Assembly (NCBI RefSeq): GCF_004353825.1
Contig: NZ_SMNA01000003.1
Location: 1 to 64,000, forward strand
Direction: 5' to 3'
Source: Occultella glacieicola
GTDB taxonomy: Bacteria; Actinomycetota; Actinomycetes; Actinomycetales; Beutenbergiaceae
DNA: 64,000 nucleotides
Shown: in pieces, positions 29,667 through 34,536 of the stretch
How the letters are laid out: each line of letters begins with the position of its first letter
Position numbering within the stretch: the stretch's first letter is position 1
Program-made: the position numbers and the translations under genes
The notes under the pieces: model-generated
What the model was told of the DNA's origin: nothing
The model's database searches: none
What the model saw: the letters and a program-made list of their open reading frames with translations, nothing else

Positions 29667-30710
29667 TCAGGCCGGCGCGAGCCGCCCCGTCTCGACCGCG
29701 GCCGCGGTGTCCTGCGTCACCAGGGCGGCGTTGATCTGCGCACCCGCCCGCATGCCGGCCGCGGCCGCCGTGATGACCTGCGTGCTCACATCGGCGACGT
29801 TCCCAGCGGCCCAGAGCCCCGGCACCGACGTCTCCCCCTTCGCGTCGGTGGGCAGGTAGGTCCCGAACACGGTCCCGCCGACCTCGAAGTCCTCGGCCCG
29901 CAGGCCCAACCCCTCCAACGGCCCCACCTGTGCGAACACGCGGGTCTGCACCGCGAGGGCGGCCCGTGGCACGAACGAACCCGACGCCAGACGGACCCCG
30001 GTGAGCCGGTCGTCGGCGCTCTCGACGGCCGCGACGGCCCCGTCGACGACGGCGATCCCGCGGGCGGACAATTGCTCCCACTCGGCCTCGGTCGGCTCGA
30101 GAACGTCGTTGAGGAACAGCGTCACGTCGGCGCTCCACTGGCGCAGCAGCAGCACCTGGTGCATGGCCATCGGCGTGGATGCGAGGACCCCGACCGCCTG
30201 ATCGCGGACCTCCCAGCCGTGGCAGTACGGGCAGTGCAGCACGTCCCGTCCGAAGCGCTCCGCCAGGCCCGGGAGGTCGGGGAGCTCGTCGCGGGCGCCG
30301 GTGGCGAGCAGCACGTGCCGGGCCCCGGTGCGGCGGCCGTCGTCGAGCCTCACCTCGAACCCACCGTCGGCACCCCGGTCGACGGCGGTGACCAGTCCCG
30401 CGGTCACCTCGCCGCCGTAACCGCCCACCTCCCTGCGGCCGATGGCGACCAGGTCCGCCGGCGGGGTGCCCTCGCGACCCAGGTAGTTGTGGACGCCGTC
30501 CGCCGGGGTGTTGCGCGGTTGCCCGGCATCCACGACGAGGACGCTGCGCCGGGCGCGCGCGAGGGTCAGCGCGGCGCTCAGACCCGCCGCCGCGCCGCCG
30601 ATCACCACCACGTCGTAGCGGTCGCGTAGTCCGGCGGCGTCGGGTGCGGGGTTCGGGTTCGGGTTCGGGTTCGGGTTCGGGTTCGGGTTCGGGTTCGGGT
30701 TCGTCTGCAC
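29667..30710 (-). CDS. Thioredoxin reductase-like FAD/NAD(P) oxidoreductase with Asn-Pro repeat leader
   Basis: A 347-residue two-dinucleotide-binding flavoprotein: FAD site VVVIGGAAAGLSAALTLARA, NADPH region around VGVLAS, redox pair CPYCHGWE in the thioredoxin reductase position, and C-terminal GLWAAGNVAD. GTG 30710 is preceded by AGGAG; the next residues are VQT then nine Asn-Pro pairs encoded by a hexamer repeat, before the folded domain begins. The frame is open upstream to 30968, but that crosses the divergent regulator's start. The pairing with an XRE-cupin regulator across a short divergent promoter is common. A small redox substrate rather than thioredoxin is likely. Confidence 0.84.
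   Translation of the reverse strand: MQTNPNPNPNPNPNPNPNPNPAPDAAGLRDRYDVVVIGGAAAGLSAALTLARARRSVLVVDAGQPRNTPADGVHNYLGREGTPPADLVAIGRREVGGYGGEVTAGLVTAVDRGADGGFEVRLDDGRRTGARHVLLATGARDELPDLPGLAERFGRDVLHCPYCHGWEVRDQAVGVLASTPMAMHQVLLLRQWSADVTLFLNDVLEPTEAEWEQLSARGIAVVDGAVAAVESADDRLTGVRLASGSFVPRAALAVQTRVFAQVGPLEGLGLRAEDFEVGGTVFGTYLPTDAKGETSVPGLWAAGNVADVSTQVITAAAAGMRAGAQINAALVTQDTAAAVETGRLAPA
30649..30702. repeat. Hexanucleotide tandem repeat, nine GGGTTC units
   Basis: Nine perfect copies of GGGTTC lie within the oxidoreductase gene and encode (Asn-Pro)9 directly after the start. A change in copy number would leave the frame intact and alter only linker length. Confidence 0.95.
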
Positions 30711-30808
30711 GGTGGGCTCCTGGCGTTCGGTCGGCCTGGACGGCCGGGCTCTGTTGAGAATTGATCTCGTTAGTATTGGACACCACGCCGCCAGGATCGC
30801 CAACGATC

Positions 30809-30825
30809 TTTGCCGGTCTGGCAAA
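30809..30825. promoter_or_regulatory. Inverted-repeat operator between oxidoreductase and XRE-cupin genes
   Basis: TTTGCC and GGCAAA arms with a 5-bp spacer end 9 bp before the regulator start, a probable site for autoregulation and control of the divergent gene. Confidence 0.55.
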
Positions 30826-30834
30826 CTCGACCCC

Positions 30835-31437
30835 ATGACGACCACGGAGCAAGCGACCGAACTCGGCGACGTACTGGACGCCGTCGGCCCGCGGTTACGT
30901 TCCCTGCGTACCCGCCGAGGCACCAGCCTCACCGATCTGTCGGAGACCACCGGGATCTCGGTGAGCACGCTGTCCCGTCTGGAGACCGGACGGCGCCGTC
31001 CGACGCTGGAGCTCCTGCTGCCACTCGCCCGCGCCTATCAGGTGACCCTCGACGACCTCGTCGGCGCGCCCGAGACCGCGGACCCGCGCGTGCACATCCG
31101 CCCCGTGATCCACCACGGCGTGGCGCACGTGCCGCTCACCCGCCGGGTCGGCGGTCAGCTCGCGGCGAAGCTCATCCTGCCGCCGGTCGAGGTCGTCACG
31201 CCGCCGGACCTGCAGACCCACGACGGCTACGAATGGCTGTACGTGCTGAGCGGGCGGCTGCGGTTGATCCTCGGCGAGCATGACGTCGTGCTGACCGAGG
31301 GCGAGGTGGCCGAGTTCAACTGCCGCACCACCCCGCACTGGTTCGGCAACCCCGGACCCGGCCCGACGGAACTGCTGAGCATCTTCGGCCCCCAAGGGGA
31401 GCGCATCCACGTGCGCGCCCGCCCGAGGACACGGTAG
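30835..31437 (+). CDS. XRE-family regulator with C-terminal cupin domain
   Basis: A 200-residue regulator: HTH_3 domain (VGPRLRSLRTRRGTSLTDLS, GISVSTLSRLETGRRRPT) followed by a single cupin domain (HDGYEWLYVLSGRLRLILGEH, VLTEGEVAEFNCRTTPHWFGN). The cupin senses a small ligand or metal. It is divergent from the thioredoxin reductase-like gene with a perfect 6-bp inverted repeat in the intergenic region, so it probably controls that gene and itself. ATG 30835 fits the start of the HTH domain; the frame is open upstream but covers the divergent gene. Confidence 0.87.
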   Translation: MTTTEQATELGDVLDAVGPRLRSLRTRRGTSLTDLSETTGISVSTLSRLETGRRRPTLELLLPLARAYQVTLDDLVGAPETADPRVHIRPVIHHGVAHVPLTRRVGGQLAAKLILPPVEVVTPPDLQTHDGYEWLYVLSGRLRLILGEHDVVLTEGEVAEFNCRTTPHWFGNPGPGPTELLSIFGPQGERIHVRARPRTR

Positions 31438-31582
31438 GCACACCGCCCCTCGTGGGAGTCGCACGCGGACGTCCGGCCGACCGAGCCGGTTCCAGCCGAC
31501 CGCCTGAAGCCCCTGCTCCGGCCGGTCACACCGTCCGCCGTAGGGTGTTCCGGGTGAGGTCCGACCCGCCGACGGTGAGACG

Positions 31583-33100
31583 ATGACCCGCGACCGCAGA
31601 ACCCCCGTGCTCATCGCCCTGATCCTGACGATGGCGCTGGTGGCGATGGACACCACGATCGTGGCCACCGCGATCCCCCAGGTGGTCGCGGACCTGGGTG
31701 GGTTCTCCGCCGTCGGCTGGGTGTTCTCCGTCTACCTGCTGGCGCAGACGGTGACGATCCCGGTCTACGGCAAGCTCGCCGACCTCTACGGGCGCAAGCC
31801 GGTCCTCGTGGTCGGGGTCTCGATCTTCCTGCTCGGCTCGCTGCTGTCCGCCGCGTCGCCGGACATGCTCACGCTGATCCTGTTCCGGGCCCTGCAGGGG
31901 GTCGGCGCCGGGGCCATCGGTGCCACCGTGAACACGATCGCCGGCGACCTCTACAGCGTCGCCGAGCGGGGCCGGGTACAGGGCTGGCTCGCCAGCGTGT
32001 GGGGCATCTCCGCCGTCGCCGCGCCAACCCTCGGTGGTCTGTTCGCGCAGTATCTGAGCTGGCGCTGGATCTTCCTGGTCAACCTGCCCCTCGGGGCGCT
32101 CGCCCTCACCCTGATCGTGCGCGGCCTGCACGAGGACGTGATCAGGCGGCGGCACCGGATCGACTACGCCGGCACCGTGCTGCTGCTGATCGCGGCGAGC
32201 CTGCTCATCCTGGGCCTGCTGCAGGGCGGGACCGCGTGGGCCTGGGACTCCGTCACGAGCGTGGTCGTGTTCGCCCTCGCGATCGGCGCCGGCGCCGCCT
32301 ACGTGCTGGTGGAGCACCGGGCCGCGGAGCCGATGATGCCGCCCTGGCTGTGGCGCACCCGCGTCACGGCAGGGTCCTACCTCGCCACCCTGACCGCGGG
32401 ACTGATGGTGATCGGGCTATCGGTGTTCCTGCCGAACTGGGGCCAGATCGTGCTCGGCCTGCCCCCGGTGTCGGCCGGCTTCGTGCTGGCGGCGATGTCG
32501 ATCACCTGGCCGACCGCCTCGGGGCTGTCCGCCCGCCTGTACCTGCGGATCGGATTCCGCGACACGGCCCTGGTCGGCGCGGTCTTCGCGCTGCTCGCCG
32601 GCGTGGTGTTCGCCCTGCTCGGCCCCGGTGCCCCGGTCTGGCAGCCGGTACTCGGGGCCGCGCTGCTCGGAGCCGGGATGGGCCTGATCACGTCCCCGCT
32701 GATGGTCGGGCTGCAGTCCACGGTGGGATGGGGTGAGCGGGGCGTGGTGACCGGTGGCGCGGTGTTCGCCAGGTTCCTCGGTCAGAGTGTCGGGGCAGCG
32801 GTCTTCGGCGCGCTGACCAATGCCGTGCTCCTGGACCGGCTCGCGACGGCGCCGGCCGGTCTGGCCGAGGATCTCCCGACCGACGTGGACGGCGTCAGTG
32901 CCTATCTTGCCGAGGCGCACCCCCGGCCGGAGGTCGCCGAGTTCCTGCGACTGGCCGTACACGATGCCACCCACGCGGTCTTCCTCGGGCTGCTGGTCGC
33001 GGCGGTCCTGACGGTGTTGGCGCTCGTGTTCGTGGTGCCACGCCGATTCCCGACCGTGGCCGAGGACCCGAATCCGACGAGTGCGCCACCGAGTCGTTGA
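31583..33100 (+). CDS. MFS drug exporter, DHA2 (EmrB/QacA) family
   Basis: A 505-residue integral membrane protein with 14 predicted helices. DHA2 hallmarks are LVAMDTTIVATAIPQVVADLG (motif D1, one residue over the family core), LADLYGRKPVLV (motif A), FRALQGVGAGAIGATVN and the helix 5 motif WGISAVAAPTLGG. It would expel hydrophobic cations or drugs by proton antiport. GGTGAGACG precedes ATG 31583. It stands alone, upstream of the alanine leader/AlaRS-like unit; a link to that unit, for example exporting a compound that hits alanine metabolism, is only positional. Confidence 0.88.
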   Translation: MTRDRRTPVLIALILTMALVAMDTTIVATAIPQVVADLGGFSAVGWVFSVYLLAQTVTIPVYGKLADLYGRKPVLVVGVSIFLLGSLLSAASPDMLTLILFRALQGVGAGAIGATVNTIAGDLYSVAERGRVQGWLASVWGISAVAAPTLGGLFAQYLSWRWIFLVNLPLGALALTLIVRGLHEDVIRRRHRIDYAGTVLLLIAASLLILGLLQGGTAWAWDSVTSVVVFALAIGAGAAYVLVEHRAAEPMMPPWLWRTRVTAGSYLATLTAGLMVIGLSVFLPNWGQIVLGLPPVSAGFVLAAMSITWPTASGLSARLYLRIGFRDTALVGAVFALLAGVVFALLGPGAPVWQPVLGAALLGAGMGLITSPLMVGLQSTVGWGERGVVTGGAVFARFLGQSVGAAVFGALTNAVLLDRLATAPAGLAEDLPTDVDGVSAYLAEAHPRPEVAEFLRLAVHDATHAVFLGLLVAAVLTVLALVFVVPRRFPTVAEDPNPTSAPPSR

Positions 33101-33158
33101 CGACGACCCGGGGCGACCTCCGCGTTCCGGGTGCAGGAATTCGACGTGACAGTCCGGG

Positions 33159-33164
33159 TAAGGT
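33159..33164 (+). promoter_or_regulatory. -10 box for the leader peptide transcript
   Basis: TAAGGT lies 7 nt before the leader ATG at 33172, the spacing expected for a leaderless mRNA. No good -35 box is seen. Confidence 0.55.
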
Positions 33165-33171
33165 GCCTGAC

Positions 33172-33237
33172 ATGTACCAGACGTCGCGTTCCGCCGCGGC
33201 CGCGCGAGCTATCCGCTCGCCGGCTGCCGCTGCCTGA
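33172..33237 (+). CDS. Alanine-rich leader peptide of an attenuator
   Basis: A 21-codon reading frame whose start MYQTSRS is followed by four Ala codons in a row (33193-33204), another Ala at codon 13, and four more Ala just before the TGA at 33235-33237: nine Ala of 21. It is leaderless (TAAGGT 7 nt upstream) and is followed by mutually exclusive hairpins and then a gene similar to alanyl-tRNA synthetase. This is the architecture of ribosome-mediated attenuation: shortage of charged tRNA-Ala stalls the ribosome on the Ala run. Too short for gene finders. Confidence 0.72.
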   Translation: MYQTSRSAAAARAIRSPAAAA

Positions 33238-33260
33238 CGTCCACCCACGCACACCGGCGA
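33217..33260 (+). promoter_or_regulatory. Predicted antiterminator pairing
   Basis: TCGCCGG (33217-33223), inside the leader peptide gene, is the exact complement of CCGGCGA (33254-33260) in the 5' arm of the terminator. If formed while a ribosome is stalled on the first Ala run, it prevents the terminator. A further 8-bp pairing links 33230-33237 to 33290-33297. Confidence 0.6.
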
Positions 33261-33280
33261 CCGGAAACGGTCCGCCGGTG
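33252..33280 (+). terminator. Attenuator terminator hairpin
   Basis: Twelve base pairs with one bulged G close a GAAA loop: CACCGGCGACCG (33252-33263) with CGGTCCGCCGGTG (33268-33280). It lies 15 nt after the leader stop codon and 62 nt before the AlaRS-like start. There is no U tract. Confidence 0.65.
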
Positions 33281-33342
33281 TCATGCTGTTCAGGCAGTGC
33301 CATCGGGCTCCTTTCCGGTCGTCTCCCGAAAGGACCACTCCC

Positions 33343-34536
33343 TTGAGCCTCGACCAGACCTTCATCGACTTCTTCGTCCAGCACGGTCACATCCCGACCA
33401 CGGGATCCTCGCTGATCCCGCGCCCCGGCGACCCTGTGCTCTTCACGACCGCCGGCATGCATCCGCTGACGCCCTTCCTGGAGGGTGAGCCGCATCCACT
33501 CGGGCGACGGCTCGTCGGGGTCCAGCGATGCCTGCGCACCACCGACCTCGACGAGATCGGCGACCCGACCCACCTCACCGTGTTCGAGATGCTCGGCTCC
33601 TGGTCGCTCGGCGACTACGGCAGCGAGCAGAGCCTGCGCTGGGGATACGAGGTGCTCCGCGACAGGCTGGGCGTCGACCCCGACCGGATGCACGCCACCG
33701 TCTTCGGTGGCAACGACGAGGTCGAGCTCGACCTGGAGTCGCTGGACACCTGGCGCAGCCTCGGCGTCCCGGTCGAGCTGACCACCGAGGACAACTGGTG
33801 GTCGAACGGCCCGGCCGGTCCGTGCGGCCCGGACTCGGAGATCTTCCTGTGGACCGGCGATGGCTCACCGGAGGGCACGCCGACCAGCGACGACCGCTGG
33901 ATCGAGGTGTGGAACCACGTCATGGTGCGCTTCCGTCGGCACCAGGACGGGTCGCTGGAACCGCTGCCGCAACACAACATCGACACCGGCCTCGGCCTGG
34001 AGCGGCTCAGCATGCTGCTCGAGGGCAAGCGGTCCGTCTACGAGACCGAACTGTTCGAGCCATGGATGCGGCTCCTGCCCGAACTGTGGAGGCTGGACGA
34101 GGAGTCCGAGCGGATCGTGATCGACCACCTCCGCTCGAGCATCGTCATCATCGGCGACGGCGTCCGGCCGTCGAACACCGGACGCGGCTACGTGCTGCGC
34201 CGGCTGATCCGGCGGGTGCTGACCCTGCTGTGGCAGGTCGATCGGTCCAGGACGCTCGTCGATCTGCCGCTGGAGGTGGTCGAGCACACGCTGCGACACT
34301 TCCACCAGGATGAGGGCATGACGCTGGTGCAGCAGGTGCTGGTCGACGAGGAGGTCCGGTTCACCGACCTGCTCCAGCGGGGCAGGCGGATCCTCGGCAG
34401 CGACCGCTTCCGGAAGACCCTCGACGAAGAGGACTTCGAGTATCTGCACCAGACCCACGGACTCCCGCGGGAACTCGTCCGATCGCTGATCGCGCAAGAG
34501 AGTGGAGCGTCGGACGCTCCTCTCTCGCTGATCTAG
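33343..34536 (+). CDS. Stand-alone alanyl-tRNA synthetase-like catalytic domain protein
   Basis: A 397-residue protein matching only the N-terminal aminoacylation part of AlaRS (full enzymes about 880 residues). Class II motifs are present: FFVQHGHIPTTGSSL, LFTTAGMHPLTPFLEG, VQRCLRTTDLDEIGD, FEMLGSWSLGDY, WSNGPAGPCGPDSEI, HNIDTGLGLERLSML and the tRNA-side RPSNTGRGYVLRRLIRR. Editing and C-Ala domains are missing. Start TTG 33343 follows AAGGA with 8 nt spacing. The upstream alanine attenuator argues that expression answers to alanyl-tRNA level. It may charge tRNA-Ala, activate alanine for another acceptor, or give resistance to an AlaRS inhibitor. Confidence 0.85.
   Translation: MSLDQTFIDFFVQHGHIPTTGSSLIPRPGDPVLFTTAGMHPLTPFLEGEPHPLGRRLVGVQRCLRTTDLDEIGDPTHLTVFEMLGSWSLGDYGSEQSLRWGYEVLRDRLGVDPDRMHATVFGGNDEVELDLESLDTWRSLGVPVELTTEDNWWSNGPAGPCGPDSEIFLWTGDGSPEGTPTSDDRWIEVWNHVMVRFRRHQDGSLEPLPQHNIDTGLGLERLSMLLEGKRSVYETELFEPWMRLLPELWRLDEESERIVIDHLRSSIVIIGDGVRPSNTGRGYVLRRLIRRVLTLLWQVDRSRTLVDLPLEVVEHTLRHFHQDEGMTLVQQVLVDEEVRFTDLLQRGRRILGSDRFRKTLDEEDFEYLHQTHGLPRELVRSLIAQESGASDAPLSLI

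Follow-up and report, generated by a model that had tools for sequence, protein, structure and literature searches.

A 64,000-nt stretch of Occultella glacieicola (contig NZ_SMNA01000003.1, positions 1 to 64,000; hereafter the window) carries an auxiliary gene for a shortened alanyl-tRNA synthetase (AlaRS)-like protein. As judged by sequence comparison, the leader in front of this gene is probably a ribosome-mediated attenuator that controls this auxiliary, editing-less AlaRS. Leader-peptide attenuation of the gene had been put forward in an original prediction made from the letters of the window, and it was supported: four genera (Streptomyces, Streptacidiphilus, Kribbella and Occultella) share the leader together with its competing helix and terminator-like hairpin. 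Alanine would be the signal and premature termination of transcription the output. The elements of the locus in the window are as follows.

33159–33164, + strand: −10 box TAAGGT, ending 7 nt 5′ of the leader ATG (read from the sequence)
33172–33237, + strand: leaderless upstream open reading frame (ORF) encoding MYQTSRSAAAARAIRSPAAAA and a stop; 21 codons, orthologous frames in 54/54 leaders
33193–33210, + strand: proposed sensor codons Ala Ala Ala Ala Arg(CGA) Ala, 5′ of the switch arm; sensing suggested by the geometry
33196–33227, + strand: protector hairpin 1:2 (33196–33202 with 33221–33227; inner stem 33206–33209 with 33215–33218)
33220–33232, + strand: switch arm 2, 5′ strand of the antiterminator, pairing with 33252–33264; takes in three whole codons of the terminal four-Ala run and part of the remaining one
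33252–33264, + strand: arm 3, 3′ strand of the antiterminator and also 5′ strand of hairpin 3:4
33251–33281, + strand: GAAA-capped terminator-like hairpin 3:4 (33251–33263 with 33268–33281), with a poor U-tract in the window
33312–33320, + strand: TTTCCGGTC element just 5′ of the Shine-Dalgarno (SD) sequence, exact complement of GACCGGAAA (33259–33267) in the hairpin
33328–33334, + strand: SD sequence GAAAGGA of the AlaRS-like gene (read from the sequence)
33343–34536, + strand: auxiliary AlaRS-like gene (alaS2 type), TTG start, 397 aa, catalytic and tRNA-recognition domains only

Conservation of the leader frame

The frame in the window ran from ATG (33172) to TGA (33235–33237) and encoded 9 Ala among its 21 codons, four of them in a run at 33193–33204 and four more at 33223–33234. 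Direct reading of the sequence thus agreed with the original prediction on the frame, the nine Ala codons and both four-Ala runs. Transcription is predicted to begin on the A of the ATG, that is, leaderless, because WblC-activated promoters start 7 or 8 bp past the −10 box (PMC7157823, available text). Rfam covariance models matched no family in 33000–33500, the sole match being a minus-strand long non-coding RNA (E 0.58, 17.3 bits, gathering score 60); a T-box or other Rfam element was rejected for the leader, as no match in this interval reached the gathering score.

A first scan of genome contigs (one genome per species) gave 53 stretches, 14 of which encoded a relative of the AlaRS-like protein (65–88% identical), and a leaderless Ala-containing frame with a hairpin was present in all 14 orthologous loci from named genomes. 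A leader covariance model (R1) was then run on 394 genomes of the class and gave 12 matches. The AlaRS-like gene (E 1e-90 or better) was found in 11 of the 394, which were 11 of the 12 leader-matched genomes; the twelfth match (L033 in genome G073, E 5.3e-4) was rejected, having neither such an ORF nor an AlaRS-like gene at E 1e-90. All four genomes of the window's own genus had the leader, and the family sample gave no match in its 20 remaining genomes. In genus g37, taken from its kin to be Streptomyces, the leader was present in 29 and the gene in 28 of 150 genomes, and all 28 gene-carrying genomes had the leader (the class and g37 samples overlap by two genomes). The leader was thus strictly linked to the AlaRS-like gene in the genomes sampled. 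Within the window genome the model gave a single match, that of the window; the canonical alaS had none, and visual inspection of ~380 nt upstream of its ATG (L016) showed no leader of this kind. In one genome (G428, leader L065) the leader was intact before a divergent, longer frame (472 aa) that gave no match at E 1e-90 and formed a long branch in the protein tree.

The final set comprised 54 leaders (52 distinct), with L033 and a near copy of L014 (L034) excluded beforehand. A leader stretch from genome G001 (L035) was identical to that of Occultella aeris (L006). In 54/54 leaders the frame was leaderless, began with ATG and had 21–23 codons; one hairpin spanned its Ala codons, another lay downstream, and a competing helix was possible. 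The motif TANNNT lay 6–7 nt 5′ of the ATG in 54/54 and was found in 0–1 of 52 at twelve control offsets. The resemblance of the leader among relatives exceeds chance. The original prediction had proposed an alignment of orthologous loci and had named orthologs lacking the leader or hairpins as evidence against it; none of these was found among the orthologs examined, and the Ala codons, the stop and the pairings recurred in 54/54 leaders, with covariation of the antiterminator limited to few events.

Codons were numbered backward from the leader stop codon. Five were invariant in the 52 distinct leaders: Ala −13, Arg (CGA) −10, Ala −9, Ser −6 and Ala −3. Others alternated, −12 being Ala in 23 and Thr in 29, −11 Ala in 44, Val in 7 and Gly in one, and −4 Ala in 23 and Val in 29. 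Among the six codons −14 to −9, Ala occurred three times in 33 leaders, four times in 13 and five times in six. Codons −15 to −19 varied widely, and drift was free 5′ of −14. The model left the first base of the CGA codon (33205–33207 in the window) unpaired, yet the codon was invariant; a built-in pause may be its role.

Competing helices and the proposed switch

The 1:2, 2:3 and 3:4 helices were mutually exclusive, and each was possible in all clades. The original prediction had described an antiterminator and a terminator-like hairpin, both of which were kept, and had overlooked a third element, hairpin 1:2 (33196–33227). It had placed the GAAA-capped hairpin at 33252–33280; the hairpin was present and slightly longer (33251–33281), with 13 paired positions and one mismatch or bulge in the model. 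The heptamer TCGCCGG (33217–33223) proved to be the exact complement of CCGGCGA (33254–33260) in the window, as proposed, but both halves occurred in only 27 of the 52 distinct leaders, so this pairing is less general; the conserved antiterminator 2:3 joins 33220–33229 to 33255–33264 (ten positions with weaker flanks).

Pairing in helices 1:2 and 3:4 was examined in two alignments. In 15 leaders aligned with MAFFT, from which the structure itself had been chosen, 92.8% of the cells were paired, and 24–52% when the helices were slid by 1–3 columns. In the 52 distinct leaders, whose alignment was fitted to the structure model, 92.2% were paired, and the covariation score was reached by 0/500 shuffles. 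The outer and inner stems of hairpin 1:2 were paired in 98.1% and 99.5% of the cells, and one of its pairs was G-C in 22 and A-U in 28 of the 52. Two-sided changes were found at 5 of the 13 pairs of hairpin 3:4. Helix 2:3 was paired in 83.9% of the cells, and its double-changed cells exceeded those of shuffles (1/500). Its covariation rested mainly on one column pair, which was mismatched in the window.

A triple common to 1:2 and 2:3 (A3 columns 13-38-77) was A-U-A in 29, G-C-G in 9, G-C-A in 14, G-U-A in one and A-C-G in one of the 54 leaders. Both helices could pair at this triple in 39 of the 54, and one leader had a mismatch in 1:2. When labeled on the protein tree the triples formed a few blocks, with 6 changes for all groups (least possible 5), indicating that the covariation events were few.

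In the proposed mechanism, the A of the leader ATG would be the first base transcribed, and translation would be initiated at once. With Ala-tRNA plentiful, the ribosome would reach the TGA and cover arm 2 together with ~10 nt past the stop; with arm 2 covered, hairpin 3:4 would form and synthesis of mRNA for the gene would end early. With Ala-tRNA short, the ribosome would pause on an upstream Ala codon (33193–33210) with its front edge opening 1:2, and arm 2, staying free, would pair with arm 3 before arm 4 exists, allowing the gene to be transcribed. With no ribosome, 1:2 and 3:4 would both form and the gene would be off.

The front edge of a ribosome with a stop codon in its A site lies ~10 nt past the stop. 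The spacer from TGA to arm 3 was 11–19 nt and never below 11 in 54/54 leaders, so that a ribosome at the TGA should cover arm 2 and leave arm 3 free. By the same footprint, arm 2 would stay free while a ribosome was stalled anywhere from codon −14 to codon −9. The terminal Ala run was rejected as a sensor, because a ribosome on the last four Ala codons would cover the switch arm; moreover, codon −4 was Val in 29/52. Only the Ala codons 5′ of the switch arm would then be able to act as sensors. Folding without arm 4 gave, for 52/52 distinct leaders, a minimum-energy structure that joined at least 7 bases of arm 2 to arm 3. Mean helix energies were −22.8 (1:2), −17.8 (2:3) and −21.5 kcal/mol (3:4), and 3:4 was more stable than 2:3 in 41/52 leaders.

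Several results weigh against the attenuator or against parts of it. A simple promoter and terminator scan of the window leader reported neither. The two-sided pair changes in 1:2 and 3:4 (five in the 15 leaders, six in the 52) were reached by 32/500 and 50/500 shuffles, respectively. For 2:3, double-changed pairs were not in excess over shuffles, one of the 13 positions (columns 44-71) was unpaired in every leader, and 14 leaders including the window had a C-A mismatch at the shared triple. For the complete transcript, with arm 2 uncovered, only 9/52 leaders retained 2:3 in their minimum-energy structure, so antitermination must be kinetic, as it is in classical attenuators. At least 5 U in the 8 nt after the hairpin were found in 11/54 leaders, and the window had 3; because of this poor U-tract, premature termination in the window is proposed conditionally. 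Because the Ala codons −13 and −9 both lie in helix 1:2, RNA pairing alone could account for their conservation. A trpL attenuator engineered with Ala codons is a general sensor of translation inhibitors (PMC5039519, in the text available), so that an Ala-codon leader need not be alanine-specific in effect.

This last result bears on a reading in which the attenuator senses slow translation generally (antibiotic stress, or a pause at CGA) and the Ala codons follow from RNA pairing in a GC-rich genome. Such a general sensor is the less likely reading, though the engineered trpL, with Ala replacing Trp codons, reports ribosome-targeting antibiotics broadly (PMC5039519), and alaS2 (SCO7600) of Streptomyces coelicolor shows a dependence on WblC and tetracycline that alaS lacks (PMC7157823, both in their accessible parts). 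The WblC box was defined as GAAAWY at 32–34 nt 5′ of the −10 box. Outside Kribbella and Occultella (41 distinct leaders) it was exact in 24 and had at most one mismatch in 40, versus 0–3 of 41 in 27 control windows, and the invariant CGA fits a general pause as well. On the other side, every confirmed leader was followed by an AlaRS relative, and the stretch −14 to −9 always held three to five Ala codons. Codon −12 was Ala wherever −11 was Val or Gly (8/52), and −11 was Ala wherever −12 was Thr (29/52), the sequences being related and the events few. The 11 distinct Kribbella and Occultella leaders, the window included, had no exact WblC box (6/11 with at most one mismatch) and still kept the attenuator.

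It is also rather improbable that the hairpin does not stop transcription and that the leader instead governs translation of the AlaRS-like gene, for example via TTTCCGGTC and the adjoining SD sequence. The scarcity of U-tracts would fit this, as would TCCGG within 50 nt 5′ of the gene start in 43/51 leaders (CCGG in 50/51) and an SD-covering stem that by eye is possible in several leaders; yet in these 51 of the 52 leaders, those with a gene start found by script, the folding excess was weak. Compared with shuffles, the hairpin-to-start stretch, including the SD-covering stem, showed only slightly better folding (mean z −0.93), and the gain for pairing of arm 3 with the TTTCCGGTC region was also weak (mean z −0.75). 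In seven Kribbella-like leaders (L001–L004, L011–L013), moreover, 5 or 6 of the 8 nt after the hairpin are U. A functional peptide encoded by the small frame (kept in 54/54 leaders), with hairpins of no relation to it, is very improbable: codons 5′ of −14 drift freely, the conserved codons coincide with the RNA arms, and Val and Ala at −4 alternate mostly in step with pairing. The attenuator of transcription thus stays the preferred reading.

The AlaRS-like gene and its possible movement

The TTG at 33343 lay eight bases past GAAAGGA. Pfam tRNA-synt_2c covered residues 4–388 of the protein (2.1e-88). NCBIfam alaS (TIGR00344) gave 308.5 bits against a cut-off of 457.05, and the match stopped at model position 406 of 847. 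The same genome contained a separate AlaRS in an open frame of 961 residues, 38% identical over the shared part. From this sub-cut-off score, the half-length match and the separate AlaRS, the gene is, by sequence, a paralog without editing and C-terminal domains beside a normal alaS. A canonical alanine–tRNA ligase was rejected on the same grounds. The original prediction had called it a stand-alone AlaRS catalytic domain; the catalytic domain was confirmed, a tRNA-recognition domain was also there, and the editing domain was absent.

Active-site residues, whose roles we take to be those generally ascribed to them in AlaRS, were compared in an alignment of 50 paralogs (numbering of E. coli AlaRS counted with Met1; L061, with no gene start found by script, and L062, with a frame below the 330-residue limit, excluded). 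Motif-2 Arg70, Asp236 and Gly238 were invariant in 50/50, and none of the 49 with a residue at these positions lacked Trp171 or Asn213. Arg86, which the AlaRS of E. coli and of five actinobacteria have, was missing from 50/50. N303 was kept in 42, and the D400 position was Asp in 36, Glu in 8, Gln in 4 (including the window) and Gly in 2. Activity of the enzyme is plausible, and it may charge tRNA-Ala.

In the protein tree the paralogs formed one clade (100/100) against five canonical AlaRS, and the four Occultella copies grouped with a Kribbella copy (L001, 100/99). Neighbouring genes were compared at 15 loci, and among the 14 largest clusters listed, flanks were not common to Kribbella-like, Occultella and Streptomyces loci. 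The clusters listed that spanned all 15 loci were the AlaRS-like gene and minus-strand frames, including ones antisense to it; one cluster of 8 loci overlapped the gene in another frame, and the remaining flank clusters were confined to Kribbella-like loci (7 or 6) or to Occultella loci (3). Since Occultella copies group with the Kribbella copy and flanks differ between lineages, leader and gene may be a cassette that moved between lineages. One member (L013), in a record named Streptomyces sp. SID13031, grouped with Kribbella in the protein tree and shared Kribbella flanking frames; its name may be wrong.

No WblC box was found at the expected place (32–34 nt 5′ of the −10 box) of the window promoter. 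With boxes frequent outside Kribbella and Occultella and absent here, two inputs (WblC and the attenuator) are likely in Streptomyces and the window probably has a single one. A broader proposal is offered tentatively. Leader and gene would form a self-contained cassette that spreads horizontally, its RNA switch sensing alanine decoding and thereby releasing a proofreading-less AlaRS. Streptomyces would add a WblC gate, so that the enzyme appears only under translation stress with short Ala-tRNA, even at the cost of misacylation, and the loss of Arg86 from motif 2 would be the sign of an enzyme adapted to this state or to alanine transfer to a non-tRNA acceptor.

Directly upstream on the same strand, 30712–33100 held a helix-turn-helix–cupin regulator frame and a drug-export-type efflux pump of the major facilitator superfamily. 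An oxidoreductase-like frame on the minus strand (29667–30968) had a long N-terminal Asn-Pro dipeptide repeat, a possible length-variable tract.

Comparison with known systems

By motif correspondence, N219 and D232 of AcmF are presumably the same Asn and Asp as those kept in the paralogs. AcmF, of ascamycin synthesis, is a truncated AlaRS-like transferase with N219Q and D232E and, like the protein of the window, an AlaRS reduced to aminoacylation and tRNA-recognition domains (PMC12945691, available part). Compared with AcmF by these published substitutions, the paralogs differ: the corresponding Asn was found in 49/49 with a residue there and the Asp in 50/50. A transferase of the AcmF type is not favoured, as both marker changes (Asn to Gln, Asp to Glu) are absent from the paralogs.

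Auxiliary synthetase genes under such control have a precedent in Streptomyces trpRS1, which, going by the title of Vecchione and Sello (2010), is reportedly subject to ribosome-mediated transcriptional attenuation. It differs in using tryptophan and in encoding an indolmycin-resistant enzyme (PMC9437257, available text), whereas the window has alanine codons and an enzyme without an editing domain. Classical attenuators were predicted upstream of trpS and leuS in Streptomyces, with a leader peptide, antiterminator and terminator 5′ of a synthetase gene, as proposed here (PMC1262725); alaS, alanine and alanyl are absent from the accessible text of that paper. The S. coelicolor alaS2 would be the same gene type, by its name and its coexistence with a normal alaS, and differs in its dependence on WblC (PMC7157823, accessible text), the window promoter having no WblC box at the expected place. 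The engineered trpL resembles the window leader in its Ala-codon peptide, at which ribosome stalling relieves attenuation, and differs in being man-made, of E. coli trp leader type by its name, and a broad sensor of translation inhibitors (PMC5039519, accessible text).

The closest relative is AlaL of S. lividans TK24, a 22-aa peptide upstream of alaS (SLIV_01315) found through RNA-seq in 2021 and reported as a type not previously described (PMC8079986). The original prediction was aware of no alanine control of an AlaRS paralog; this leader type is already listed there. The S. lividans peptide MNVIGRNIFATARATSSPVAAA equals our leader L051 letter for letter, and the L051 genome (G527) has an AlaRS-like gene right after it. 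The window frame is likewise a leaderless ATARATSSPVAAA-type frame directly 5′ of an AlaRS-like gene, as in this AlaL/alaS2 leader family, with a different peptide in a different genus. In the available text of PMC8079986, AlaL is treated in a single paragraph and a single row of a table, under the gene name alaS; paralog status, competing structures, relatives and leaderlessness are not given.

The leader of the window is an added case, in another family, of the known ribosome-mediated attenuation of synthetase genes; its three-state structure, gene linkage, spacing and dual control are not described for AlaL in the accessible parts of PMC8079986 or of related literature. If the attenuator holds, actinobacteria would keep an alanine-decoding sensor for a proofreading-less AlaRS, and experiments could then address under which conditions and for what reason cells tolerate a synthetase of lower accuracy, and whether the gene gives protection against AlaRS inhibitors or translation stress. 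The one-paragraph annotation of S. lividans thereby becomes a defined, proposed three-state switch with base-level predictions, found in at least four genera and tied to a shortened AlaRS paralog.

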